Below are positions 2,074-21,794 of a DNA stretch of 22,340 nucleotides, one piece after another. This DNA is from a virus: positions 1-22,340 of the IMG/VR virus record IMGVR_UViG_3300032304_002224, one strand, 5' to 3'. The translations under genes and the position numbers were made by a program. The notes under the pieces were generated by a model. That model was not told the origin of the DNA. It did not search any database and worked only from the letters and a program-made list of their open reading frames with translations. Position 1 is the first letter of the stretch; every line of letters begins with the position of its first letter.

Positions 2074-2159
2074 TTGCCCAGTGTGGCGTTGATTTGGTGT
2101 TGTGTTGGTGTTGGGGTTGTGTAGAGTTTAAAGTATGCCGATTGCCCACGCATTGCCCA
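2074..2159 (+). repeat. Right-side TTGCCCA arm-site repeats
   Basis: Single copy at 2074-2080, then a pair at 2142-2148 and 2153-2159 spaced 11 bp, matching the left-hand pair. Between them (about 2083-2125) the plus strand is very G/T-rich with repeated GGTGTTG. The pair lies inside codons 3-9 of the integrase gene. Confidence 0.5.
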
Positions 2160-3274
2160 CCAGAAAACCTGCTCGTAGCCGGGAGGTAATCACGTTTGAG
2201 GGCGTCAATTACCCACTGACGCTGGAACTGGGGAAAGGGTGGCGGATGAGATCACGCTCAATTCATCGTCGTGTCGATTATTTTACGGGCACCCTCAACA
2301 AGGTCGTGGCTCGCCGTTTGTGCCTCGCTCATCTGGCGGAATTGAAGACGGGGAAGCCGAGGCCGACTACGCAGACGCTCGAAGATGTCGTTGCGTGCTA
2401 CCAAACAATGGCCAAGCGCGCCGGCATAGCGACCGAGAGATTAAACATCCGCAGCCTGCGGCAGGTGGTGCAGGCGGTCACGGGAAAGGATTTGCGGCAT
2501 TATTACCTGCACGATCTAGGGCCGGACCTGTGGGCAAAATATCAGGCCATTAAGCAAGGGTTGCCTCGGGTGGATTTGTCGATTCGGCGCGCGTCACACA
2601 CGAGCATCAACACGACCGTTAGGGCTGCGGTGTCGATGTTTATCCCTAAGCTGAGGCCGGGGTATGAGCGCGCGGGGCTCACGATTCCCACCAACACTTG
2701 CTCAGTGCAGTGGCTCCAAACGCTCAAGCGCCGGCCTGCGGGGTTTCAGGAGGCCGAGATGTTGGCAGCCTGGGCGGCGCTGACTGATCAACAGGCTTTA
2801 TGGTTTGCGGTAGCGCTGGCAAGGTTTGCAGGGTTGAGGAAAGAGGAGATCGGGGGATGCCGCGGCGGTTGGTTGGTGCGGCATGATGGGGTTTGGTGTC
2901 TGGAGATGCGCGACCGGGAAAGCGAAGGATGGTACACCAAGACCGGAGCGCACTATTTTGCGATGATCACTCACCCCGCGCTGATCGAGGCTTTGCAGGC
3001 GGTGCCACCGGACGATTTGGTCATTGGTGCCATTTCAAACCGCACCAACTGGCTGGATCGGGGGCCGCAACAATGGCTCAGGCCGTTCATGGGCACCCGT
3101 GAGGAAATTTACAGGCCCCTGCACCGGCTCCGCGCGGCTTATCTGGCCAGCATCCAGCGTGAGGCCCTGATCGAGATGCAGCAGGCGGCTACGCGCAAGG
3201 CATCCGCTCAAGCTGGCCACACTCAGACCACCACAACCAGTCGGCATTATTTGCCGGCCTCCATTGCCTCTTGA
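2135..3274 (+). CDS. int: Tyrosine-type site-specific integrase
   Basis: A 379-residue tyrosine recombinase that would catalyse integration and excision between attP and a tRNA-Lys attB. The catalytic set is complete: Arg235 (GLRKEE), a likely catalytic Lys near 269 in the beta hairpin, His330-x-x-Arg333 (HRLR), His362 (GH) and nucleophile Tyr372 (SRHYL). A core-binding SAM-like region lies around residues 78-180. The N-terminal 60 residues would hold the arm-binding domain. The start at 2135 lies within 80 bp of the tRNA core, and TTGCCCA repeats overlap the first codons. The length is normal for phage integrases. The next gene follows one base after the stop. Confidence 0.92.
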   Translation: MPIAHALPTRKPARSREVITFEGVNYPLTLELGKGWRMRSRSIHRRVDYFTGTLNKVVARRLCLAHLAELKTGKPRPTTQTLEDVVACYQTMAKRAGIATERLNIRSLRQVVQAVTGKDLRHYYLHDLGPDLWAKYQAIKQGLPRVDLSIRRASHTSINTTVRAAVSMFIPKLRPGYERAGLTIPTNTCSVQWLQTLKRRPAGFQEAEMLAAWAALTDQQALWFAVALARFAGLRKEEIGGCRGGWLVRHDGVWCLEMRDRESEGWYTKTGAHYFAMITHPALIEALQAVPPDDLVIGAISNRTNWLDRGPQQWLRPFMGTREEIYRPLHRLRAAYLASIQREALIEMQQAATRKASAQAGHTQTTTTSRHYLPASIAS

Positions 3275-3599: not shown

Positions 3600-6323
3600 T
3601 TACACCCCTGCCCCAGCCCGATATTCGAGGCTGAGATCGCGCACGATAAACGGCTTTTGCTCCGCGCAGAGGATGCGAAAATTGACCTTCGCGGCCGTGT
3701 CGAGCGCGCTGAAAAGCAGTTTGTGCGCCCGGCCTTGGCCGAGGGTACCAATATCGCCGTAGGTGCGGGTCAGCGTGTTGCCGGCGGCGGTGGTAATCGT
3801 CATTTCCACGAGCCCGCGACTGCCCACAACAGTGTTCCAGATCAGTGCAACGAACTGTTTGCGCTGGCTGGCATCATTCAAATCGACCATGCCCGTTTCG
3901 AGTTCGGCGATATATGCGCGTCGGTAGGCCCTACCACCCCAGGTTGCTTGTCCGTAGCCGGCATCACCGACCGGCGCGGTATCGGGGATCGCATAGGAGG
4001 TGGCCGGTGCCACGATGGGCAGCGCGTCCGAAAAATCGCCTTGGTTGGCGGTGTCCCAGACAAACAAATTCATGGCTTCGTCTGCAAAGATAAACTCAGG
4101 CCGGTTTGGCTCCATGCCCGTGAGGCCGTGAATCTTTGGGTGATCGAACTCACCCACCAAACCCTTGGCTAAAAAGTCGTAGGCAAACCCTTTCAAGGTG
4201 CCATCAAGCGCTGGCACAAAAAACCAGATCATCTGTCCGCGGCTATCTGGAAACATAAAAACCCGCTCAGGATTTTTTTGCACCGCATCGCGATCTGCGC
4301 GAGCCATGATATACGCGGCAGAGTCCAGCGCGGCAAAATTCGAGTCGTTGCGGCCGTAGCGGGTGCCGTTGAATTGGTATAGCTGGAGATCCATGCCCAG
4401 AAAATACAACTCCCCTCCAACCCATTGGGTAATCGCATTGCCGTTGAGCGCACCCGCAATCCCTGGCGGTTGAAATTGGTTGTCGGGGTTGTTTGGGTCG
4501 ATCATCGACACCCCCACGGCCGTGTGCAGCGCGACTCGGAAATTGTCTGAGTACATCGCGGAGATGCGGTTCGACGATGCGCCGTGCCCCTGAAACACCT
4601 CGTACGAATCCACATTGGCCCCCTCGGGTGCCAGTTCCGTTTCGTTGGCCGGCCGGGAAACATAGAGCCGGTTTGGTTGGTCCTCGTATCCGCCGGACCA
4701 GTGTTGCCCATTGCACTGCACGCAGTGCAGCGTGGGCAGAGCTTGGTGTTGCTCCACGTACATTTCCTGCCCAAATTCCGTGTCTGACCCGATGGTAATT
4801 GTCTGGGTGGTACCGTTATTCGAGATCGGGTTGTCCGGCTCCACGAGGTAATACAATGCCGTCTCATCCTCACCAAATTGCAGGTAGATTCTAATATTGC
4901 TAAACCGACCGCCGCCAGCCACGGGATTGGTCGGGACCGTCACCACGATGTCATTAGCAGCGAGCGCGTTGATGATCACTGAATTGGAAATTGGGCTATT
5001 GAGCCCTTCGTAGCCGAGTCCATCCTTGCCAGTGTCAAAATACCGCGCAAAAACCGTCACCGTGCGGTTCGAAAAACCTGTGCTTTTACCGGTGCCACTC
5101 CCACCGGAAAGCGCGGTGATCGACCACGAGCCCGTGTCAGTGGTCGTGTTTGCGGCTGAGGTCGATGCACTTAGAATTGTGATCGCTTTTGAGTCGCCAT
5201 TGACGAACGAAACAATGGCGTTGTTGCTCGACCCACCTGAGCCCGGAGAGGTAAAAACGGTGTAATGGTAAGGGCTGGCAACCGTGCCCAACCCCGTCAG
5301 TGTCGAGCGAATGCCGACCCCGTACGGGTCGTAAGTGATACGCACATAAATGCGGCCATTGGCAGTTGACCCTGGAAAATTGGTGGCGTTGGCCTCAAAC
5401 GTCAGTGAGGCCGCGCCTGCGCGTTGGCCCGATCCTCCTCCGCCGGGAATGGTGTACTTGGCGGAGACGTTGGTGCTGGACGTAGGTGGCGTCACTGAGA
5501 CTTGCGGGGCCGCCGGTCGCGTGTTGTCACCTGAGAGCCGCCACTTGCCTGGGATCGCCGTGCGGGTAATTTGCACGATGGCCGGGATGTCTTTCCCGTT
5601 GCGCACATGAAGCTGGCTCTGGAAGCGCTGAGCATACCAGCGCGCTGAGGTATGCAGGCGGACGGCCAGCACTTCCCACGTTGCACCGGCGGCGGTAAAT
5701 TCCACCGTTCCCGTGTAGGTAGCATCATCGCCGCAGTAAAACGGTCCTCCGCGCGCCTTGCCTGCCGGGATGTTGTAGAACAGCAGGAAAGTCTTTCCGT
5801 ATTTGCTCAGCAGCAGCGCCACGGTGCTATCCGCGTCGGCCAAGGTGCGCTGCGGTTGCAGTTGAAGGAACCCCGTGCCTCCCGTCATGGAAATCAGCGC
5901 CGAGGATGGCGTCAGCGATAAACCGCAGATGTTGCCAACCAAATTCCTCACATAATAATTGGTGCTCGTGTTGAAAGTGTGCGGGCTGCCGGAAATGGAG
6001 GCCATGGGAAAGGTGCCCGTGGTCGAGACGCGCACGATCTCGCCAGCGGTCAGAAAATTCTGATAGACGTTCAGTTCAGTGGGGGTGCCTGCACGAGTGG
6101 TGCACTTGGCTAACGGAGGCCGCAGCGCGGTAATTGTCGTCTTGATCGTTTGGCTCGCCCCCAGCGCCCACAGCCGCTGGTAAATGGGCATTCCCTTGAA
6201 TCCGCCCCATGGGCGCAAAAGGATGTTCTTCGCTTTTTGCAGCTTGGTGCCGAGGTGAGTGGTTTCCAGCAGCGTCGAGATTCCGCCAAACCCTCGAATT
6301 GGAAAGACGCTTGTTTTAGCCAT
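3600..6323 (-). CDS. Large podovirus-type tail (stabilisation/tubular) protein
   Basis: A 907-residue structural protein. The N-terminal region (about residues 28-50, KAKNILLRPWGGFKGMPIYQ) has the arrangement seen in tail tubular B-like or stabilisation proteins, where a conserved Asn-Met/Leu-Leu-Arg-Pro-x-Gly-Gly segment precedes a beta-rich body. Residues 97-152 carry a short phage structural motif (STTGTFPMASISG, then NYYVRNL, then a Gly-rich end). The C-terminal half has repeated Trp/Gly/Asp strands (RLYVSRPANETE, AVGVSMIDPNNPDNQ, ELYFLGMDLQLYQFNG) suggestive of a beta propeller. It is the last gene of the minus-strand block, five bases after the 310-residue gene. No Shine-Dalgarno sequence precedes the ATG. 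Confidence 0.75.
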   Translation of the reverse strand: MAKTSVFPIRGFGGISTLLETTHLGTKLQKAKNILLRPWGGFKGMPIYQRLWALGASQTIKTTITALRPPLAKCTTRAGTPTELNVYQNFLTAGEIVRVSTTGTFPMASISGSPHTFNTSTNYYVRNLVGNICGLSLTPSSALISMTGGTGFLQLQPQRTLADADSTVALLLSKYGKTFLLFYNIPAGKARGGPFYCGDDATYTGTVEFTAAGATWEVLAVRLHTSARWYAQRFQSQLHVRNGKDIPAIVQITRTAIPGKWRLSGDNTRPAAPQVSVTPPTSSTNVSAKYTIPGGGGSGQRAGAASLTFEANATNFPGSTANGRIYVRITYDPYGVGIRSTLTGLGTVASPYHYTVFTSPGSGGSSNNAIVSFVNGDSKAITILSASTSAANTTTDTGSWSITALSGGSGTGKSTGFSNRTVTVFARYFDTGKDGLGYEGLNSPISNSVIINALAANDIVVTVPTNPVAGGGRFSNIRIYLQFGEDETALYYLVEPDNPISNNGTTQTITIGSDTEFGQEMYVEQHQALPTLHCVQCNGQHWSGGYEDQPNRLYVSRPANETELAPEGANVDSYEVFQGHGASSNRISAMYSDNFRVALHTAVGVSMIDPNNPDNQFQPPGIAGALNGNAITQWVGGELYFLGMDLQLYQFNGTRYGRNDSNFAALDSAAYIMARADRDAVQKNPERVFMFPDSRGQMIWFFVPALDGTLKGFAYDFLAKGLVGEFDHPKIHGLTGMEPNRPEFIFADEAMNLFVWDTANQGDFSDALPIVAPATSYAIPDTAPVGDAGYGQATWGGRAYRRAYIAELETGMVDLNDASQRKQFVALIWNTVVGSRGLVEMTITTAAGNTLTRTYGDIGTLGQGRAHKLLFSALDTAAKVNFRILCAEQKPFIVRDLSLEYRAGAGV

Positions 6324-9460: not shown

Positions 9461-10573
9461 TTACCTGAACGTCACCCCGTACGCAGCTCCGCTGCCTCCA
9501 AGGTCTTCATTCAGAAACGCATCGATGTCTGCAAGATCATCACTCTGGGCGGCTGCCTGCAAGCGTTGAACTCGAACGTCATCGGGTGACACGTCTCGAA
9601 TACTGACACGGTGCGCCTGTCCAGTGGCACCAGAGAACGGCATTGGGCCCGGCTCCGCCTGGGCTGCTGTTCGCTGGGTCTGACGGCCCATTGGGTTTTG
9701 GGGGCTCCGACCCGGCTTCGCCTGGGTTGGAGCAATACCTTGCTCGCGCGCAATTTCTTGGGCGATGAGCAGAGCAAATTGGGGGTGGCGACGTTTCGCC
9801 AAATCAAGCGCAGCGTCGGGATCGTTTGCGATTGACGGATCGGCCGCAGCGGCGCGTTCGAGCGCATTGATTTCCTCCATGCGCTGAGTCGTGGCCAAGG
9901 TAAAGGGGTCGTTGTCGTCGGCCAGCGCCGGAAACATGTCGTAGGCAGCCTCCACGGCCGCATCTTCGATCCGCTGCACTTCCGTGGCCTGCTGGCGCTG
10001 CGTCACGACTTGCTCCCGCTGCATCAGTCGGAGATCGGCAATCAATTCCGCTTGGCGGGTGTTCAGGTCGTACACCTCGCGGTTGTAGGTGGAGCCAATG
10101 CCGCCATCCTCAGCAAAATCAATGAGTTTGGCCCGAACTTCTTCCAGTTCGGCTTCCAAAGCGTCCATGCTCGGATTGCTTTGCGCGGCCTCGGTTGGAG
10201 CGCCGGTTTCGTCGATCAGTCCCAGTTGCTGGTTGGCCATTGCTGAAATCTCCGATGGGGAGAGATCAGGGTTTTTCATGGCAATTTCCAGCATAACCTT
10301 GTGAGGTGTTGGAAGATGCTTGGTGTAAAACCGGTCTGGCAGCGTCTCAGGAATCGTCCGCGCCGGCGGTTCTTCGTTCACTGGCGCTGGCGCTGGCGCT
10401 TTCCGGTCTTCGACAAATAACGTCTGGGGCGCAGCCTGTTGCACTTGGGACGGTGCCGCTTCCTCGATCACCTCGGGCGCATCGCCCATGCCGGCAAGAG
10501 CCGTGTCCATGGCGGCGTCAAAGTCGGCGTCTTCGGTTTCAATCAAGGTTGGTGCTTCAGCGGTTCCCGTCAT
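9461..10573 (-). CDS. Capsid scaffold-like protein
   Basis: A 370-residue acidic protein with the start placed at the ATG at 10573 (an upstream TTG at 10609 would add 12 residues). It is rich in Ala, Glu, Asp and Gln and mostly helical, with an acidic N-terminal region (ETEDADFDAAMDTAL). A predicted coiled coil spans about residues 130-215 (DALEAELEEVRAKL, then RQAELIADLRLMQREQ). A disordered Pro/Gln-rich segment follows, and the C-terminal patch (VRVQRLQAAAQSDDLADIDAFL) could be the coat-binding helix. This composition and its place immediately before the major capsid gene match podovirus scaffolds. No protease domain is seen. Confidence 0.65.
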   Translation of the reverse strand: MTGTAEAPTLIETEDADFDAAMDTALAGMGDAPEVIEEAAPSQVQQAAPQTLFVEDRKAPAPAPVNEEPPARTIPETLPDRFYTKHLPTPHKVMLEIAMKNPDLSPSEISAMANQQLGLIDETGAPTEAAQSNPSMDALEAELEEVRAKLIDFAEDGGIGSTYNREVYDLNTRQAELIADLRLMQREQVVTQRQQATEVQRIEDAAVEAAYDMFPALADDNDPFTLATTQRMEEINALERAAAADPSIANDPDAALDLAKRRHPQFALLIAQEIAREQGIAPTQAKPGRSPQNPMGRQTQRTAAQAEPGPMPFSGATGQAHRVSIRDVSPDDVRVQRLQAAAQSDDLADIDAFLNEDLGGSGAAYGVTFR

Positions 10574-10638: not shown

Positions 10639-11172
10639 CTCCCACGGTTTGGGTTTGCCGTGATACACCACGACTGCGCCTGAGTCCGGCCCGTGGACTT
10701 TAAAACTCGTCACCAACGGCGGATGAAGATACTGAATGGAGTCTTTGAGCTTTGAGTAAATCCATTTCTGATCCCCTCCAGGATGCGGCGCGCCATCGTA
10801 ATCCACTGTGACCTCGGGACGTGGACCTTGCCATACCATGATGCTGCTGTTCAGATCAGGGAGGAGCGCGTCTTTCATGCCCCACACCTGCCCGTTGTCC
10901 GTGGGTAGGTCATCCAACCAGTTGAGGGGGCTGCGGATGGTCACGTCGAGATCGAAATAGCAGGTTTTGCCAAAGTCGTGATCAAACAGTTCCAGCTTCG
11001 ACCACCAGCCTTGCCAGCTTTTGACCAATCGAATGCCCGGTTGCTTCGGGTGATCGGTCAGACAAATGAACGGCGCTGCCTTGTAGTGCTGCCACACCAT
11101 GTCACTGAGCCGCTGGACGTGCTCCGGGACGTAAAGGCCGCCGGTCTTTAGGACGCAAACAAAGGTGTCCAT
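10624..11172 (-). CDS. Small GT-A type glycosyltransferase
   Basis: A 182-residue protein with its start at the ATG at 11172, which gives a 25-bp overlap with the FkbM gene. Residues 73-76 (FDLD, in CYFDLDVTIRSPLN) look like the metal-binding DxD motif of a GT-A nucleotide-sugar transferase. LNSSIMVW (107-114), GGDQKWI (132-138) and HGKPKPW (171-177) match the order of acceptor-side and C-terminal His-x-x-Lys-Pro motifs seen in GT8-like enzymes. It probably transfers a sugar from a UDP- or GDP-linked donor. The acceptor is unknown; the setting inside a virion operon suggests a virion protein or the host surface. It is short for a complete enzyme but all expected motifs are present. Confidence 0.7.
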   Translation of the reverse strand: MDTFVCVLKTGGLYVPEHVQRLSDMVWQHYKAAPFICLTDHPKQPGIRLVKSWQGWWSKLELFDHDFGKTCYFDLDVTIRSPLNWLDDLPTDNGQVWGMKDALLPDLNSSIMVWQGPRPEVTVDYDGAPHPGGDQKWIYSKLKDSIQYLHPPLVTSFKVHGPDSGAVVVYHGKPKPWEVVHN

Positions 11173-11804
11173 ACAAAAACATCGTCGTTCCCGATGCGGT
11201 CCACTTTCCGGTATTCCCGCTCGTGCAGCCAGTTGCGGGTGTAAGAGTCCGGCCACCCGTAGGGCTCGCCATGCCCTTTGAGTTCAAGGGCAATCACAGG
11301 ATGACTTACCCGGATGATCTCCTCCGACCCTTCGAGCGCCGCCTGTTCCCATCCCTCCACATCGAGCAGCATGAAATCCACGCCGGCGTGGGGCAAAACT
11401 TTGTCCAGCATGATCACGGGCGCGGCATGGGGCGCATTGCCTAACCTTACCTGAGTGGCTCCGTAATTGCCCCATTCCCTCGTGCTTCGCCAAGTGGTCA
11501 CGTTTCCCTCTTGGTTCCCAAGGGCTCCATATTTCAGGTGATAAAACCGTTCCGATTTCGATTTGCCGTTGTTGGCGAGCAGGCATTCGTAGTTCTGGGG
11601 ATCGGGCTCAAAGGTGAACACTTGTTGAAAGCAATCGACCAACCAATTGGCATACACCCCCACATTCCCGCCGGCCTGCACACAGATCCGGCGCGGATCC
11701 TGCACATGCTGCAAATACTGCGGCAAGCGCTCGACCTCGCGGAGCACCACCCCCGGCGTCACGGTGTCGCCATCCGGCCAGAAAAAACCTTGCCGCTCTT
11801 TCAT
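11148..11804 (-). CDS. FkbM-family methyltransferase
   Basis: A 218-residue class I methyltransferase of the FkbM type, which usually O-methylates sugars or polyketides with S-adenosylmethionine. The SAM-binding motif I is QAGGNVGVYA (43-52, with Gln where Asp or Glu is usual), followed by FEPDP (65-69) and the family hallmark LLDVEGWE (146-153). Its ATG overlaps the GT8 stop by 4 bp (ATGA), so the two are translationally coupled. The downstream glycosyltransferase overlaps its end by 25 bp. This suggests the three enzymes build and methylate one glycan. Confidence 0.85.
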   Translation of the reverse strand: MKERQGFFWPDGDTVTPGVVLREVERLPQYLQHVQDPRRICVQAGGNVGVYANWLVDCFQQVFTFEPDPQNYECLLANNGKSKSERFYHLKYGALGNQEGNVTTWRSTREWGNYGATQVRLGNAPHAAPVIMLDKVLPHAGVDFMLLDVEGWEQAALEGSEEIIRVSHPVIALELKGHGEPYGWPDSYTRNWLHEREYRKVDRIGNDDVFVWTPLFAS

Positions 11805-13681
11805 TTCCAGAGTGCCCTTTCTGGGTTAAGTGGGTTCATCGCCCTCACGGCGCGATGAAACGGACCTTGCCCGCTGGCCATTTTCGGAATGTGCAGCCAT
11901 TCGTAATCTTCAAACGTGGTCAAACCGATGGCCTTGGCAATGACCATCAGCATGAGGATTGCCTCGCGATCTTCCCTCATTTCCGCAAAGCGCAGCGGAG
12001 CCATTTTCCAGTCCAGCCCACCGATCTGCTTTTGCCATTGGTCTATGACTAAACTTATCACTGCTGCCGCTTGTTGAGCGTTGCCGAGGAGATAGTGCCC
12101 ATACGAAGCGATGACGGCAGTGCGCAACAGATTACACAAGGCCGCCGGCCAAATTTGGACATTTACAATTTGAGAACACACCTCCACGGCGGACATCCAG
12201 GCAAATTTTAATTTGCCTTGAAGCGCCATCATATAAACGACGGAGGTTTGCCAACTCATCGCCCACCGAAACCCCATCCCGTCGCTCATTGTTGGCATTT
12301 CAACCCCCGCCACGTCTGCTTCCCATTCGCTGTACGTTAGCAACCCCTCGCACACCCGATAGGTCAGGAACACCTTCAGCGCCGCAAGTGCTTCGCCTTG
12401 AATCAGGTGCTCAGGCCGGTCCCGAATCCAGCGCAGCGCGCGCTCGGTGCGGTAGGCAAGGGGTAAAGACTCGTCGTTGTTCGCTTCAAACACGTTGGTA
12501 ATTTGAGCGTCGGCCGGGTAAACGATCACCGTGTTCACCGTAAAAGGCGTCTTTTTGGGAGATCGATCTTCAAATTCAAACACTGCGGCATGGCTTTTGA
12601 GGTGCGCCAGCTTGTCGGCTTTCTTGACGCCGGCCGCGTGAAGTCCGTAAACCAGATCGGGCACACTGCCATAACCGTGGGAAACGGCGTGCATAAAGAA
12701 ATTAAACCCCGCCGGCATCGGGTGAAACGGCACCCCGGAACGCTGGACGGCCATGTTCAGTGGGGTCTGGTCGCCATAGTCGGCGATTTCATGGATTGTT
12801 TTGTCTTCAAGGATCTTTGCGGCTCGGCGAAAAGCCGCCCGGACGTGCTCACACGAAAAATCCGCGATGAACAGCCCCGAGTTGAAATACTGCCGGCGCT
12901 CCAGTCCCAACTTAGCACAGTCCAGCGACACAAACGACTGAGCATCCCGTGTGCCTGGGTCTGGCACCGCCGACACGGCACCCTTGGCCACTTGCGACAC
13001 CAAATCCGTTCGCCGGAGCAGCCACAAGTCGGCATCAAAAAACACCACTGGCACCGGTGGCAGGAGATCGGGCAGGGCTAGCTTGTAGGCAAAGCCGGCA
13101 TCGCCACTGAAGCGCAGCACGTTGCACGGCAATCCTGTGTGCTGGTGAAACCTCTTCACCGCTTCTTCTCCCATGGCTTCGTAGCCTGGGGTGATGATGG
13201 TAGCCCCAAGCAGCGGCAGCGGGTCGGAGGCGTTCCAGCCTGTGGCGATTGGCTCTAAAGGTTTGGTATGCTTACCGAGATAGAGCATCGACGCGCACGA
13301 TTCTTCGACCGTAGGCGTACGCTGATTGGCGATCTTCAACCATTTTTGGATGGTGTCAGGGTTTGGCGCTAGCTCCCAAAGCGTCACGCAATACACCCAT
13401 TTGCAATGGGCCATGTGCGCCTTTGCCAATGCGTGATATTCTGCCACTCCCTTGGGGTGCTCTTTGAGCCACAGAATCCATGCCCCTTTTCCAGCTAGTT
13501 CTTTGCCTTCGGGTTTGCTCCCGCACGAAATCATGAGGGTTTCAATTTTGAAATAGCCCGATGCGCCAAAAAACGCGCTTTCCCATTCATTGTGGCCCGG
13601 CGTTCCCTGTTTAAATGGGTTTACCCCCACCACTCCAAAGAAATGGGAGCCGTAGCCGTCGTGTCCGTCTGTCTGTTTCAT
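11801..13681 (-). CDS. GT8-type glycosyltransferase with extra domains
   Basis: A 626-residue protein. The central part carries the GT8 (glycogenin/galactosyltransferase-like) signature set: FFDADLW with the DxD metal site at 216-218, YFNSGLFI (265-272), YGDQTPLN (302-309) and GLHAAG (346-351). It should transfer a hexose from a UDP-sugar in the cytoplasm. The first 150 residues and last 250 are not recognised. The C-terminal part is helical with many Trp and Ala (HYLLGNAQQAAAVISLVIDQW), possibly for acceptor recognition. It begins three bases after the endolysin stop and is coupled to the FkbM gene by ATGA. The size is about twice that of a minimal GT8 domain. Confidence 0.78.
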   Translation of the reverse strand: MKQTDGHDGYGSHFFGVVGVNPFKQGTPGHNEWESAFFGASGYFKIETLMISCGSKPEGKELAGKGAWILWLKEHPKGVAEYHALAKAHMAHCKWVYCVTLWELAPNPDTIQKWLKIANQRTPTVEESCASMLYLGKHTKPLEPIATGWNASDPLPLLGATIITPGYEAMGEEAVKRFHQHTGLPCNVLRFSGDAGFAYKLALPDLLPPVPVVFFDADLWLLRRTDLVSQVAKGAVSAVPDPGTRDAQSFVSLDCAKLGLERRQYFNSGLFIADFSCEHVRAAFRRAAKILEDKTIHEIADYGDQTPLNMAVQRSGVPFHPMPAGFNFFMHAVSHGYGSVPDLVYGLHAAGVKKADKLAHLKSHAAVFEFEDRSPKKTPFTVNTVIVYPADAQITNVFEANNDESLPLAYRTERALRWIRDRPEHLIQGEALAALKVFLTYRVCEGLLTYSEWEADVAGVEMPTMSDGMGFRWAMSWQTSVVYMMALQGKLKFAWMSAVEVCSQIVNVQIWPAALCNLLRTAVIASYGHYLLGNAQQAAAVISLVIDQWQKQIGGLDWKMAPLRFAEMREDREAILMLMVIAKAIGLTTFEDYEWLHIPKMASGQGPFHRAVRAMNPLNPERALWK

Positions 13682-13684
13682 TTT

Positions 13685-14206
13685 TTATTCAATAATTCGA
13701 ATGACCTCCAGCACATTTTTGCGGATGCGGGGTTTTTCAAAAGTTCCCTCACCATCGCGCGCGGCGCGGGCATTGGTGTTGTAACCAATAGCATCAAACG
13801 GCCCGGTGGTGGTGCCGTCGTCGTTGGTGCAAAGTTCAATGTGGCTGTAATCAAAAATGATGATGTCGCCGGTTTTCAGAATGCAATTCTTGGGCAGGAT
13901 CCGCAGCTTGCGCCGGCGCGCCCACTTGCTCCACTCCCTCACGGCCGCACTCTTGCAGCGCCACGTTTCGGCGGTTGCCGGCGTCAATTTCAGGGCTGCT
14001 AGCACGTCCGGCCGTTTGAGCCATTCCCTCATGCAGTACGCGACCCCGGCTGCGCAATACGGCTCGCGATTGGTCATCCCTTCCGGGTAACTCGTGGCTT
14101 CCCACAGCTTCGCAATCCAAGGGGCGCGGTTTTTCGTCACCTCCACCCGGTCTTTATCCAGACGGGCGATCTCAATCAGCGCGAGACGTAACGGGTAAGT
14201 GCTCAT
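13685..14206 (-). CDS. Endolysin-like peptidoglycan hydrolase (CHAP/NlpC-P60 fold)
   Basis: A 173-residue protein. Cys51 lies at the start of a helix (REPYCAAGVAYCMREWL, 48-63) and His122 in a strand after a Gly-Asp turn (LKTGDIIIFDYSHIELC, 110-126), with a later polar strand (DAIGYNTNA, 138-146). This Cys...GDI-strand...His...Asn order is that of CHAP/NlpC-P60 cysteine peptidases that cut peptide bonds of the cell wall. No signal peptide is seen, so release would depend on the neighbouring holin-like protein. It is coupled by an ATGA overlap to the 125-residue gene upstream. Cell lysis at the end of infection is the likely role. Confidence 0.72.
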   Translation of the reverse strand: MSTYPLRLALIEIARLDKDRVEVTKNRAPWIAKLWEATSYPEGMTNREPYCAAGVAYCMREWLKRPDVLAALKLTPATAETWRCKSAAVREWSKWARRRKLRILPKNCILKTGDIIIFDYSHIELCTNDDGTTTGPFDAIGYNTNARAARDGEGTFEKPRIRKNVLEVIRIIE

Positions 14207-14580
14207 GAAACAATGTCTGGCACCGGCGGCAGGTTGATGATGCGCTGCCAGACCCCCACGCCTTCCGCAGCGAGCGAGACGAGTTCTTTTGTGATATCGC
14301 CTGAGCGGTGCGGAAAACCCAGCTCGACCATCAACGCGGCAATCTGTTCGCCCACTTGCTCCGCTTCGGCATCAGTGAGGTTCAGCAATTCGGCCGGCAC
14401 GTCTGCGATGCCGTCGAGCGCTTCTTTGAACACTGGCCATTCTCTGGCGAGGCTGAACAGTTCAAAAATGCTGATCTTTTTATCGGCTGCGATGTCGCGG
14501 CCTCGCAGGATCAACACGGCAATGGCAGCAATGAACTGCTGCGTCTGGATGATGGAACGGGTGTTAATGCTCATGGTCAT
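14203..14580 (-). CDS. Hypothetical lysis-region protein
   Basis: A 125-residue, mostly helical acidic protein (or 123 residues from Met3 at 14574). A hydrophobic helix at residues 14-26 (QQFIAAIAVLILR) could be weakly membrane-associated. It is followed by DKKISIFELFSLAREWPVFKEAL and an ELLNLTDAEAEQVGEQIAALM segment. Similar small proteins near holin and endolysin genes are common, but I do not recognise a named family. Its start overlaps the end of the holin-like gene and its stop overlaps the endolysin start by ATGA, so all three are coupled. Confidence 0.65.
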   Translation of the reverse strand: MTMSINTRSIIQTQQFIAAIAVLILRGRDIAADKKISIFELFSLAREWPVFKEALDGIADVPAELLNLTDAEAEQVGEQIAALMVELGFPHRSGDITKELVSLAAEGVGVWQRIINLPPVPDIVS

Positions 14581-15118
14581 GGTCCTTGGGGTGGTTCGGT
14601 AGATGACGCTCAGCCGCGTCGAGAATTTTTTGGGCGTAGCGATGCTCGCGGGCCTCCAACAGCCTCACGACACCGTGGATAACGGCAAACGACACAATCG
14701 AGGCCACGCCGCCGCCGAAAAACAACATAATCGGGTGCGTCAGCACCGCCGCCGTCTGCGGTAGGAGCAGGCTGGCAGCCACATTGAGCACGGCCCCAAA
14801 AAACAGCGCCATCATTCCGCGGCCCACCAGGATGTTCATCGGTTCTCTCCGTAGCCGAAAAATAATCATGGGGATCATCGTGCAGGCCGCCCCCATGAGC
14901 GGGAGTGCTAACACCCGCAGCTCAGTGATTTCGCCACTGGCCGCTTCCTCCGCGAGGACCATTCCACCTGGAGCAATGATGCTCAGGCCCAAAAAGATCA
15001 TGAGAGAATCAATCACGGCAATGAATCGGTGAGGCATAGGGTGCGAGGTGTGAGGTGAGGAGGAATGACACGCTTGGGAGCGCACGGGATCGGGACAGGA
15101 CAGGTTTAGACTTTTCAT
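14564..15118 (-). CDS. Holin-like multi-spanning membrane protein
   Basis: A 184-residue protein with four hydrophobic segments at about residues 32-54, 72-87, 101-122 and 128-148 and a charged, His-rich C-terminus (DHDHEH). The gene adjoins the endolysin region, so a holin role (timed pore in the inner membrane) is likely. It is larger than most holins. The start at 15118 gives 13 nt from the previous stop. An alternative ATG at 15037 would remove 27 Ser/Pro-rich residues and begin just before the first membrane segment. Confidence 0.6.
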   Translation of the reverse strand: MKSLNLSCPDPVRSQACHSSSPHTSHPMPHRFIAVIDSLMIFLGLSIIAPGGMVLAEEAASGEITELRVLALPLMGAACTMIPMIIFRLRREPMNILVGRGMMALFFGAVLNVAASLLLPQTAAVLTHPIMLFFGGGVASIVSFAVIHGVVRLLEAREHRYAQKILDAAERHLPNHPKDHDHEH

Positions 15119-15131
15119 AGGGTGGCGTCAA

Positions 15132-15512
15132 TTATTGAGGAGGGGAAGCTAACAGCACTTGGGTGGCGTTGTTGTCTTTGACAATCTCGACCGCTGCTGC
15201 CTCAGCCGTGGCTTTCTGGGAAGTCGCCGCTGCGTTGGTGTCGATCACCTGCTTGGTCATTTCCTGGGCCTCAGTTGCAGCAGCAGAAAATCCGCTGGTA
15301 GCGACGGCTGCGACTGCGAGCGCCCCGTCGCGAAACGATTTTTCCCCATTCCAGAAAAAGCCCTCCCCCCATTTGCCTGCGAACTTACCACCGAGGCCGT
15401 AGGCTTGCTTTCTTTCGGTAATGGTGTTGTCGGTCAGGTTTCGAACGGTTTCTTCCTTGATGCCCATGCAGGAGGCCAGCGCCAAGGGTAAGAGCAAAAG
15501 GAGCAATCTCAT
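15132..15512 (-). CDS. Predicted lipoprotein of 126 residues
   Basis: A short Leu-rich signal ends in lipobox LASC with the lipid-bearing Cys15. Residue +2 after Cys is Met, so by the E. coli rule outer-membrane sorting is expected. The mature part has a charged region and a Trp/Gly/Phe-rich patch (KWGEGFFWNGEKSF). It continues as an Ala/Thr-rich helix (residues about 75-118) that could span periplasm. It is the last of the ATGA-linked lipoprotein run and is followed by the holin-like gene. An outer-membrane spanin subunit is the simplest role, but no matching inner-membrane spanin is visible. Confidence 0.7.
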   Translation of the reverse strand: MRLLLLLLPLALASCMGIKEETVRNLTDNTITERKQAYGLGGKFAGKWGEGFFWNGEKSFRDGALAVAAVATSGFSAAATEAQEMTKQVIDTNAAATSQKATAEAAAVEIVKDNNATQVLLASPPQ

Positions 15513-15652
15513 GGCTTTGCGGCCCCTTCTGTGTCGAACATTGTAGCCACAAAGGAATTCATCGCCGAGTCAAACGGGTCCGGCATTTTCGGACTCGACT
15601 GGCAAGCCGGCAGACTCAGCAGCAGGATCACAACGAGGAATTGGGCTTTCAT
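15509..15652 (-). CDS. Tiny predicted lipoprotein (47 residues)
   Basis: A 47-residue ORF below the usual size cut-off. It begins MKAQFLVVILLLSLPAC, with signal h-region and lipobox LPAC at Cys17. The mature part is 31 residues (starting CQSSPKMPDPFDS). The stop overlaps the next lipoprotein start by ATGA, and its own start overlaps the previous gene's stop in the same way. Its small size and Pro-containing mature part are like Rz1-type outer-membrane spanins. The function is inferred from position only. Confidence 0.7.
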   Translation of the reverse strand: MKAQFLVVILLLSLPACQSSPKMPDPFDSAMNSFVATMFDTEGAAKP

Positions 15653-15780
15653 GGTTTCGGGTGTTGGTTTTTTGAAGCGATGTCGCCTACCGTTTTGTCG
15701 ACGCAGTAGAGGGTACCCTCAACGGGATTGAAAGCGCAGGAGGTCAGGATAGCCGTAAGTAAGAGGAGGATAAGTTTCAT
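15649..15780 (-). CDS. Tiny predicted lipoprotein (43 residues)
   Basis: A 43-residue ORF beginning MKLILLLLTAILTSC, with lipobox LTSC and Cys15. The mature part is 29 residues and has one further Cys (CAFNPVEGTLYC). Start and stop both overlap neighbouring lipoprotein genes by ATGA. The 14 bases TTTCATGGTTTCGG (plus strand) occur at both ends of this gene (15647-15660 and 15775-15788), which suggests that small lipoprotein genes arose here by duplication. Confidence 0.68.
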   Translation of the reverse strand: MKLILLLLTAILTSCAFNPVEGTLYCVDKTVGDIASKNQHPKP

Positions 15781-15944
15781 GGTTTCGGTTCTTGCTCCAT
15801 CCACCATTTTTCCACAGCGCTAGGCACATGCCCATCAGGATTGGTTTGCCTCAAGCCGATGATAAGACTGCATGAGGTCAGGGTGAGCGAAAGCACAAGA
15901 GCAAGCAGCAAAAGAGTGAGTTGTATATTTAAACACGTTTTCAT
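15777..15944 (-). CDS. Small predicted lipoprotein (55 residues)
   Basis: A 55-residue ORF. The signal has an unusually long hydrophobic run (LLLLALVLSLTLT) and lipobox LTSC at Cys25. The mature part is 31 residues and ends in a Trp-Trp patch (EKWWMEQEPKP). Its start overlaps the stop of the 155-residue structural gene by ATGA, and its stop overlaps the next lipoprotein in the same way. A competing 64-residue frame (15835-16029) was rejected because this frame alone shows a signal and coupling. Confidence 0.68.
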   Translation of the reverse strand: MKTCLNIQLTLLLLALVLSLTLTSCSLIIGLRQTNPDGHVPSAVEKWWMEQEPKP

Positions 15945-16408
15945 GTGACTCCTTGTTGAGGAATTGTGATCGTGGTATAAGAGGTTCCAACCGAAGCATC
16001 GGGTCGCGCCCCAGTGTTATAGTCCTCAACAGTGAAAGTTGCCGAATTTAAAGAAATTCCCGTGAAATAGTTGCTGACAACAGCATAAAATTTTGCCGCG
16101 ACTTTTGCTGCCGTGTCATCAGCAAATAGATTGAGGCTCACCCCGTGGACCCTGTTCGGATATCCGGGGGTGTCTTCGCCTACACCACCCGCAAGATACT
16201 GCCCAGTTCCAAAAAAACTACGAGGGCCATCACTATCGTACAGGGTAAAGTATAGAGCAGGCTCGCCCTCCTCATAATTGACTACCCACTCACTGGCCGC
16301 TGACCCTCCAAACGTAACAGTTGTGCGTTCTTTGGCAGGAGGAAAAGCAACAGATGCCTCGCTCGGGCGGGTGAAGGCCAATCCTAAAGCTATTCCAAGT
16401 GCGGGCAT
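15941..16408 (-). CDS. Probable fibre or decoration protein (155 residues)
   Basis: The protein begins MPALGIALGLAF, a Gly/Leu-rich start often seen in small phage tail-fibre or virion proteins, followed by a beta-rich body (TTVTFGG, EPALYFTLYDSDG, TFTVEDYNTG). No catalytic motif is seen. It starts three bases after the 92-residue gene, and its stop is fused by ATGA to the lipoprotein run. I assign a virion role from composition and position; the exact family is unknown. Confidence 0.6.
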   Translation of the reverse strand: MPALGIALGLAFTRPSEASVAFPPAKERTTVTFGGSAASEWVVNYEEGEPALYFTLYDSDGPRSFFGTGQYLAGGVGEDTPGYPNRVHGVSLNLFADDTAAKVAAKFYAVVSNYFTGISLNSATFTVEDYNTGARPDASVGTSYTTITIPQQGVT

Positions 16409-16411
16409 CGG

Positions 16412-16690
16412 TTAGGCGCGATTCGGAACCTTGTGGTAGCAGCGGATATGACCGCTGGCAAGCTGGCCAGCGTGGAAGTGCCCGTAAAAAATGTCACCGA
16501 CGGGGTAGGTTGCGCCGGCGGTGACCACTCCGGTGGAAGGGTTGGCCCCCTTGATGAGCCCGTTGCCTTGCAGTTTGCTAAAAACAGTGGCCGTCACGAT
16601 CTGGATCGCCGCAATGTTTTTGCCTGAAAAGGCCGTCGTATCCGCCACCTCGAAAAACCCGAGGCTGCCGTCAGTGAGTGAGACTTTCAT
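16412..16690 (-). CDS. Small structural-type protein (92 residues)
   Basis: A beta-rich protein with Gly/Thr/Ser repeats. An FFEVADTTAFSGKNIAAIQIV segment is followed by a Gly-rich turn and a YPVGDIFYGHFHAGQLASG segment. The second half resembles small fibre-associated or decoration proteins. It lies 28 bases after the 155-residue gene at 16719-17186 and three bases before the next gene. The function is not recognised beyond a likely virion component. Confidence 0.6.
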   Translation of the reverse strand: MKVSLTDGSLGFFEVADTTAFSGKNIAAIQIVTATVFSKLQGNGLIKGANPSTGVVTAGATYPVGDIFYGHFHAGQLASGHIRCYHKVPNRA

Positions 16691-16718
16691 CGTGTTTGAG
16701 GTGGCGGGTTAGGGTCAA

Positions 16719-17186
16719 TTAGACGGCGGCGATGGTGCAGACGTGTTTGCTCACCACATACCATTCGCCGGCGTTGGCTTCGAGTTCGAGCGCGGCCCCA
16801 GGGAATGCGGCAAACGTGGCCGTGTCTTTGGCTCCGCCGGTCACGCCGTCTTCCAAAAGGTTGGTAGCGGTGATGACATGGGCAAAGGCCGTTGTGGTGA
16901 TGATGCGCAACCGAGTCCCGTTCTGCGCGGTCGTCGGAGCAGCCAGCGTGAATGCGCCGGCTGAAGTTTTTGACAAAAGAACTGTGCCGCTTTGAATGGC
17001 AATAGCTCCATCCGTTGTGTAGCTGGTCTGCTCACCATTTACTCGCTGAACAGCCCGCTGAAGGTTGGCACCTGTGACCCGGCGGCGTTCCACCTTAGGA
17101 GCGCGCTCAATGTCAGTCACAGGAAAGTTGATAGCGCGGAAAATTTCCGCAGGGGTGGCACTCGGCAGTTTTTCAATGGCTTTCAT
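16719..17186 (-). CDS. Probable decoration or tail-fibre accessory protein
   Basis: A 155-residue protein. An N-terminal helical part with basic residues (RAPKVERRRVTGANLQRAVQR, about 28-48) is followed by a beta sandwich-like domain. That domain has the repeated pattern AIQSGTVLLSKTSAGAFTLAAP, TRLRIITTTAFAHVITAT, AALELEANAGEWYVVSKH (about 64-150). The pattern of hydrophobic strand, Gly turn, then a final GEWYVVS strand is common in phage fibre and capsid-decoration proteins. It follows the coiled-coil gene by 70 bp. No Shine-Dalgarno sequence is seen. Confidence 0.65.
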   Translation of the reverse strand: MKAIEKLPSATPAEIFRAINFPVTDIERAPKVERRRVTGANLQRAVQRVNGEQTSYTTDGAIAIQSGTVLLSKTSAGAFTLAAPTTAQNGTRLRIITTTAFAHVITATNLLEDGVTGGAKDTATFAAFPGAALELEANAGEWYVVSKHVCTIAAV

Positions 17187-21032: not shown

Positions 21033-21794
21033 TTAGTTTTTCGTGCGTTTTCTTCCTCGCTTGATCGCGCCAACCGGTGTTGAAAGCGCTTTTTCCAGTG
21101 ACCAATTCATGATGTGAATGCGCGCATTCACAATGTGGATCGGGAGATTTGCAGCAGCGCACAAAGGCTTAAGTTCCGCAAGATCGCGTTTGGGCTTCCT
21201 GCGGGTAAAGGGTGTAGATAAAGCTTTCTCTGGCGACCATCCTCGCTTTTTAACACGGTAGAGGTAACTCCCATACCAAATGCCGCGTTCTTCACATAAC
21301 CTCATGATGTCACGAGGGCCGTTTACTGAACTATGTTGAGCTTGGGTTCTGCGGGGCGCATTAATCACCTTTGGTTTGGCTGGTTTAGGAGTCCGCACGG
21401 GTGTATCGAATGCCCTTTGAATATCCCAGCCTAAAGAATAAACGCGGCATTTGACCGAATGTACCGTCACACCGGCTAACGCACACGCTTCAACTAATGG
21501 TAATATCTGTCCTTTCCATGAAACCTTGAGTGAGTTTCTTTTGTTTCGCATTTGCTCCAAATTCGTCGCCCATCTGCAATTTGTGGGGCGGTAATCACCA
21601 TCATTATTGATTCGATCCAGCGAGAGTCCAGGAGGCGGTTCACCCATATCCTTCAAGAAATTGGAAAAGGTGAGCCACCTTTTGCACACCGTGATTCCCC
21701 TCCCTCCATAATTTGGATAGTCCTTACTCAGTGGATTCACGCAACGGCGCACCATTGCGTGCCACGCGGTATATGCTTTCGATTTAGAGGGCAT
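21033..21794 (-). CDS. HNH-type homing endonuclease-like protein with DNA-binding repeats
   Basis: A 253-residue protein. Residues 8-87 match the phage nuclease family with YTAWHAMVRRCVNP, then YGGRGITVCKRW (29-40), then LSLDRINNDGDYRPTNCRWAT (57-77), where the Asp-Arg-Ile-x-Asn-Asp and Asn-Cys-Arg-Trp parts form the betabeta-alpha metal site. The C-terminal part has three divergent repeats (about 100-132, 164-195, 208-240). Each ends in a pattern such as GWSPEKALSTP and probably forms a DNA-reading helix. It likely nicks or cuts DNA and spreads as a free-standing mobile gene. A near-consensus AAAGGAGG (21803-21810) lies before the ATG, unlike most neighbours. Confidence 0.82.
   Translation of the reverse strand: MPSKSKAYTAWHAMVRRCVNPLSKDYPNYGGRGITVCKRWLTFSNFLKDMGEPPPGLSLDRINNDGDYRPTNCRWATNLEQMRNKRNSLKVSWKGQILPLVEACALAGVTVHSVKCRVYSLGWDIQRAFDTPVRTPKPAKPKVINAPRRTQAQHSSVNGPRDIMRLCEERGIWYGSYLYRVKKRGWSPEKALSTPFTRRKPKRDLAELKPLCAAANLPIHIVNARIHIMNWSLEKALSTPVGAIKRGRKRTKN

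Follow-up and report, generated by a model that had tools for sequence, protein, structure and literature searches.

What is a phage doing with four small lipoprotein genes in a row, at the seam between a gene exchanged among its relatives and its presumed lysis region? We addressed this question in 22,340 nt of DNA from an IMG/VR virus record (IMGVR_UViG_3300032304_002224; the whole stretch is referred to as the window). Its minus strand carries, from 15944 to 15132, four ATG-started genes of 55, 43, 47 and 126 codons (Lp1 to Lp4), each with a lipoprotein signal and a lipobox. In minus-strand order, the run and its surroundings are as follows.

15941..16408, minus strand: 155-aa gene, exchangeable, directly upstream of Lp1 and joined to it by ATGA
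15777..15944, minus strand: Lp1, 55-aa lipoprotein, lipobox LTSC, Cys25; mature peptide CSLIIGLRQTNPDGHVPSAVEKWWMEQ..., nearly invariant across three phages; dN/dS 0.07
15775..15788, minus strand: 14-bp direct repeat CCGAAACCATGAAA, exact, copy at the Lp1/Lp2 junction
15649..15780, minus strand: Lp2, 43-aa putative lipoprotein, lipobox LTSC, Cys15; recognised by its signal and ATGA joints only, missing from the close relative
15647..15660, minus strand: 14-bp direct repeat CCGAAACCATGAAA, exact, copy at the Lp2/Lp3 junction, bracketing Lp2 with the other copy
15509..15652, minus strand: Lp3, 47-aa lipoprotein, lipobox LPAC, Cys17; dN/dS 0.17
15132..15512, minus strand: Lp4, 126-aa lipoprotein, lipobox LASC, Cys15; mature part strongly constrained (dN 0.012)
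14564..15118, minus strand: holin candidate of 184 aa with four predicted TMDs, separated from Lp4 by 13 nt; no family match
14203..14580, minus strand: 125-aa protein encoded between the holin and endolysin candidates; no function assigned
13685..14206, minus strand: 173-aa endolysin candidate; the copy in the close relative has weak PHROG endolysin matches only (E 0.08)

In all four precursors a brief charged stretch is followed by a hydrophobic run and then by a lipobox ending in Cys, as in substrates of signal peptidase II. By sequence, Lp1 to Lp4 are thus bacterial lipoprotein precursors of this type, and their products would be lipidated and located in a membrane. These results bear out the four ORFs described in a first-pass annotation of the sequence, as well as its statement that each start is fused to the preceding stop and the first to the upstream gene, since 4-nt ATGA overlaps were present at all three internal joints and at the joint between the 155-aa gene and Lp1. 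The same annotation had noted that Asp is absent from position +2, which is correct (S, A, Q and M in Lp1 to Lp4, respectively); the outer-membrane sorting that it expected from this would follow if the +2 Asp rule, an enterobacterial one, also held in the likely host phylum, Verrucomicrobiota. Its remark that three of the genes are too short for routine annotation is doubtful, since gene callers accept ORFs of 30 codons. ATGA is common in this phage, occurring at 7 of the 14 junctions checked (also at portal/g107, g125/lysin and GT8/FkbM), so that the overlaps alone are ordinary and the lipoprotein run is the unusual part. No clear Shine-Dalgarno sequence precedes most window genes; AAGGAG is present at Lp1.

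The frequency of such chains was analyzed with one lipobox filter, applied everywhere and with Pro allowed at -2. Under this filter the window contained exactly one chain, of length 4, and after codon-block shuffling of the window (30 replicates) there were 10 single ORFs and zero chains. In the comparison set, 2.36 Mb of DNA from other phages, prophages and flanking regions, 106 single lipoprotein-like ORFs were detected, and the sole chain was the 3-chain of a close relative described below. Lp3 carries LPAC, which departs at -2 from the strict consensus ([LVI][ASTVI][GAS]C), and a stricter filter missed it; LPAC is also found in a 60-aa lipoprotein of a Phycisphaerae prophage. The hydropathy and helix filters used throughout were simple and purpose-made, in place of SignalP and DeepTMHMM.

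Other phages and proviruses that we compared (L181, L184, L188, L225 and L154) resemble the window in having a lipoprotein of 44 to 77 aa near lysis or scaffold genes. A 45-aa lipoprotein is ATGA-joined to a 55-aa hydrophobic protein in L181, and a 77-aa lipoprotein (4090-4323) is joined in the same way to a TMD-plus-helix protein (4320-4694) in L188. L154 has a 60-aa lipoprotein ahead of a scaffold-type gene. The provirus L225, from a Verrucomicrobiota genome, encodes between 8641 and 10364 a two-TMD protein of 70 aa, a 174-aa lipoprotein and a 197-aa protein, followed by a 44-aa lipoprotein (9952-10086) ATGA-joined to a 93-aa TMD-plus-helix protein (10083-10364); these last two are a good candidate for an o-/i-spanin pair in the Verrucomicrobiota. 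Unlike the window, however, these phages have at most two lipoproteins each, never a run, and the sequences are unrelated. The earlier view of the run as unusual therefore holds, as one or two lipoproteins are usual in the phages and proviruses compared and no chain occurred in the 2.36 Mb outside the phage pair. The window run is an expanded version of the usual one or two lipoproteins.

The capsid gene points to Verrucomicrobiota as the likely host phylum. With its profile, 4 of 388 genomes from the phylum of an Akkermansiaceae genome matched strongly (E 5e-39 to 2e-122), and one further match there was weak (6e-4); elsewhere no match was better than 2.7e-6, with 3 of 388 genomes from the Pseudomonas phylum and 1 of 382 from the phylum of a Phycisphaerae genome giving weak ones. 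On the plus strand of the window, an ORF at 2135-3274 that looks integrase-like by eye had weak tblastn matches in three Verrucomicrobiota genomes and no match in Pfam or NCBIfam. Beside it, on the minus strand (1977-2153), a short frame, PPEGFEPSTKRL, encodes a peptide of the kind that results when a tRNA gene is translated, which makes an attachment site possible; ARAGORN found no tRNA. A 253-aa ORF at 21033-21794 (minus strand), with repeated AP2-like segments, resembles by eye a homing endonuclease of the HNH or AP2 type. Among GenBank phages there were no sequence relatives of the capsid, portal, integrase, Lp1, Lp4 or the endolysin candidate, and relatives of the terminase (about 40% identity) had no structural gene in common with the window within the stretches compared.

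To evaluate coding status we used a close relative, G001, an IMG/VR contig of 57,705 nt whose portal protein is 99% identical to that of the window and which aligns with most of the window at 92-95%. A search for the same ATGA chain in related phages, as the first-pass annotation had proposed, returned a shorter version: Lp1, Lp3 and Lp4 are intact in G001 and form a 3-gene overlapping chain, from which Lp2 is missing. Comparison of the two phages gave dN/dS values of 0.07 for Lp1, 0.17 for Lp3 and 0.15 for Lp4, with a significant excess of synonymous changes (Fisher p 1.4e-10, 6e-5 and 5e-8, respectively). In Lp4, the signal peptide was free to change (dN 0.46), and the mature part was nearly fixed (dN 0.012). 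Lp1, Lp3 and Lp4 are demonstrably real coding genes under strong purifying selection. The annotation had also stated that frames disrupted in relatives with intact neighbours would speak against the genes; this was the case for Lp2 only.

Nucleotide similarity to G001 is lacking between 15656 and 16362, with the exception of 15788-15922 (78%). Synonymous divergence was 0.15 in the portal gene, 0.73 in g155a and 0.40 in g92; beyond the replaced gene it exceeded 2 in Lp1 and was 0.61 in Lp3, 0.33 in Lp4 and 0.10 in the 184-aa gene. Divergence is thus highest next to the replaced gene and declines in either direction from it, which places Lp1 to Lp3 inside an exchanged tract and Lp4 at its edge. 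The raised values in the pair of genes preceding the exchanged one (0.40 and 0.73 at 16412-17186, minus strand, against 0.15 in portal) indicate that the tract reaches upstream of the 155-aa gene.

Lp2 had no homologue in the comparisons made, so that the case for its coding status is its anatomy and it is the weakest of the four; being absent from a close relative, it is dispensable, as judged from its sequence distribution. The two exact copies of CCGAAACCATGAAA at its ATGA joints suggest that Lp2 was gained or lost by a repeat-mediated process, perhaps in a single event. About two fifths of the G001 genome is taken up by one uninterrupted reading frame, comfortably more than 7,500 codons long, which runs from L006:9768-1 (minus) through L008 to L001:1-3915; beside SSB in the window no such frame was observed. 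As the G001 frame spans the contig ends, the record is probably a circular permutation.

A search with Lp1 identified two more contigs from other metagenomes (L193 and L194, 99% identical to each other), in which Lp1 is 73% identical to that of the window. These contigs represent a very distant phage, with capsid and portal identities to the window of about 25% and 21% and nothing recognisably common in the lysis region. The only other strong DNA match, at about 80%, was to the first 47-63 nt of the gene preceding Lp1 (MPALG...RPS). Lp2, Lp3 and Lp4 were absent from both contigs and Lp1 was the sole lipoprotein found; it is followed by genes for proteins of 100 aa, 33 aa (single TMD), 135 aa (two TMDs and a helical tail), 124 aa and 94 aa, and by a 193-aa M15-type endolysin (Pfam 2e-7; PHROG endolysin 3e-27). 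Because Lp1 and the 5′ segment of its neighbour are common to such a distant phage, Lp1 travels with the exchangeable gene. In the latter, just the first 47 nt or so (MPALGxxLGLxFxRPS) are common to relatives and the remainder has been replaced: the counterparts of the 155-aa gene are 290 aa plus an overlapping frame of about 133 aa in G001, and 46 plus 264 aa in the distant phage. The 155-aa gene had no match to a recognised family and is probably a tail-fibre or receptor-binding gene.

The known spread of Lp1 is a lower bound. Searching the full records of 32 viral contigs returned just the three copies already known, and plasmids contained no relative of the Lp1 of the distant phage. Several further candidates were rejected. 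The best match of the Lp1 profile in 388 Verrucomicrobiota genomes (E 2e-4) lay inside a 532-aa frame, two short-frame matches with a KWW motif (L198 and L200; E about 0.007 per genome) are what chance would yield in a set of 388 genomes, and PDB profile matches to kainate receptors (best E 0.004) were likewise attributed to chance.

The lipoprotein run forms the last genes before a membrane-protein/endolysin-type cassette and the first after the exchangeable gene, a location that fits both a spanin and an exclusion function. The o-spanins are lipoproteins of lysis cassettes (PMC6139136). In the window, lipoboxes are present and the position is in or near a presumed lysis cassette, whose endolysin is only a weak candidate. 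As with two-component o-spanins of the Rz1 type (PMC6139136), the small lipoprotein genes are overlap-joined to the lysis cassette; in contrast to that type, there are up to four in a row, no i-spanin was found adjacent and there is no proline-rich region. A hydropathy/helix scan for i-spanins (N-terminal TMD plus periplasmic coiled coil) detected none in the window or in about 99% of G001, its only returns being an antisense ORF and a piece from within the 184-aa protein; the same scan recovered i-spanin-type proteins in the proviruses L224 and L225. Unimolecular spanins of the T1 gp11 type (PMC6139136) share with the run an N-terminal lipobox and, in Lp4, a predicted helical periplasmic part, but Lp1 to Lp4 have no TMD beyond the signal region and hence lack the C-terminal transmembrane domain of that type. 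AlphaFold2 models from two-sequence alignments (pLDDT 40 for the endolysin candidate and 57 for Lp4) were too poor for a fold search; in Lp4, residues 56-122 were predicted to form a long helix, with pLDDT reaching about 70 at most. Pfam, PHROG and NCBIfam returned for Lp1 to Lp4 weak matches in the signal-peptide region only, which were rejected (for example spanin2_2 at 16 bits, where the cut-off is 100). The interval from the endolysin candidate to a scaffold-type gene (11148-13681, minus strand) holds two genes, one resembling a family 8 glycosyltransferase (GT8; Pfam E 5e-5, just under the cut-off) and, by eye, a gene for an FkbM-type methyltransferase, which are possible surface or virion modification genes.

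Exclusion lipoproteins sit directly downstream of receptor-binding genes, as does Llp after pb5 (PMC9586334), and exclusion proteins and RBPs occur directly downstream of gpJ (PMC9586334); the Cor locus provides a further precedent (PMC13164509). Like T5 Llp and T1/phi80 Cor (PMC9586334, PMC13164509), Lp1 is a tiny phage lipoprotein directly downstream of a putative attachment-type gene within an exchanged cassette. It differs from them in sequence, in having no internal disulphide, in belonging to a late-looking operon and in a mature part that stays invariant while its neighbour changes. Lp1 to Lp4 showed no match to Llp or Cor in Pfam, PHROG or PDB. A second Cys is absent from mature Lp1, Lp3 and Lp4 and a single one occurs in Lp2, so that no intramolecular disulphide of the Llp/Cor type is present. 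We do not claim membership of Lp1 to Lp4 in the spanin or the Llp/Cor families.

Lp1 to Lp4 are probably a real, co-translated set of small envelope lipoproteins, Lp2 being included on anatomy. We place high confidence in the anatomy of the run, and moderate to low confidence in any function. Because the run sits where exclusion and lysis-cassette neighbourhoods meet, we took Lp1 as exclusion-type and Lp4 as lysis-associated, functions suggested by analogy. Our preferred but tentative reading is that two known kinds of phage lipoprotein have been abutted at the tail-fibre/lysis seam, with Lp2 and Lp3 as accessories. Lp1, as part of an exchangeable cassette, would target a conserved component of the host outer membrane from that membrane's inner face and would block re-adsorption, that is, cause superinfection exclusion in the manner of T5 Llp or T1 Cor. 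Lp4, beside the four-TMD holin candidate, would be a member of the lysis module that aids outer-membrane disruption in an o-spanin-like way. Lp2 and Lp3 may be accessory lipoproteins acquired at ATGA joints, Lp2 through the repeat-mediated event. Against this reading, mature Lp1 is nearly constant although the upstream gene is wholly different, whereas a receptor-specific exclusion protein should follow its partner. Moreover, the genes look late, being joined to structural and lysis genes, whereas exclusion of the Llp/Cor type acts early or from a prophage; in addition, no i-spanin partner and no Llp/Cor disulphide were found, and the upstream gene belongs to no recognised family.

It is rather doubtful that all four are lysis lipoproteins, forming a redundant or multi-part o-spanin-like set with the four-TMD protein or with a partner encoded outside the window. 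The run does lie directly upstream of the holin and endolysin candidates, the lipoproteins of L225 and L188 are ATGA-joined to TMD-plus-helix proteins, and Lp1 is the sole lipoprotein seen beside a real lysis cassette in L193/L194. However, the scan of the window and of about 99% of G001 returned no i-spanin, none of the four has the C-terminal TMD of a u-spanin, Lp1 is conserved across phages with unrelated lysis membrane proteins, which ill fits a dedicated partner, and Lp2 is dispensable; the four-part spanin proposed in the first-pass annotation is accordingly not supported. Its other proposal, a superinfection-exclusion set, stood as far as location after an exchangeable gene is concerned, and was weakened by the missing Cor/Llp similarity and the constancy of Lp1 beside a changing neighbour. 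That all four should be exclusion or surface-conversion lipoproteins, one receptor each, gathered beside the attachment gene, is unlikely: Lp4 lies at the tract edge beside lysis genes, even though the run adjoins the exchangeable gene within the exchanged tract, the gain of Lp2 is repeat-bounded and the integrase-like ORF suggests a temperate phage. Strong conservation between the window and the distant phage is confined to Lp1 and the MPALG segment, as would be expected if Lp1 were a virion-associated or assembly lipopeptide that works with the N-terminal MPALG part of the upstream protein, perhaps to attach the exchangeable protein or to release virions at the membrane. Virions assemble in the cytoplasm, however, out of which a lipoprotein signal would carry the peptide, and we know of no precedent for such lipopeptides, which makes this idea very improbable. 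Finally, the missing homologue of Lp2 and the atypical lipobox of Lp3 might suggest short hydrophobic frames that arose by chance and are not genes. This explanation is refuted for Lp1, Lp3 and Lp4 by their dN/dS values (Fisher p 1e-10 to 6e-5), the frames are intact in G001 and, for Lp1, in two further contigs of other metagenomes, and shuffling produced no chain; for the run as a whole it is barely credible.

Beyond the preferred combination of an exclusion-type Lp1 and a lysis-associated Lp4, a bolder and improbable scenario would make Lp1 a widely shared lipopeptide of about 30 residues in Verrucomicrobiota phages, acting on a conserved envelope target and serving as a fixed downstream anchor for a cassette through which attachment genes are exchanged, with Lp2 to Lp4 as a multi-lipoprotein system for outer-membrane disruption that dispenses with a classical i-spanin. 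No studied lysis or exclusion system for phages of Verrucomicrobiota turned up in a literature search, and this run bears on how such phages may breach the outer membrane. The short, highly conserved Lp1, which along with an exchangeable gene has crossed between phages very distant from each other, offers a handle on the host envelope component on which it would act. The run also suggests that lipoprotein genes can accumulate at one operon joint through repeat-bounded gain.
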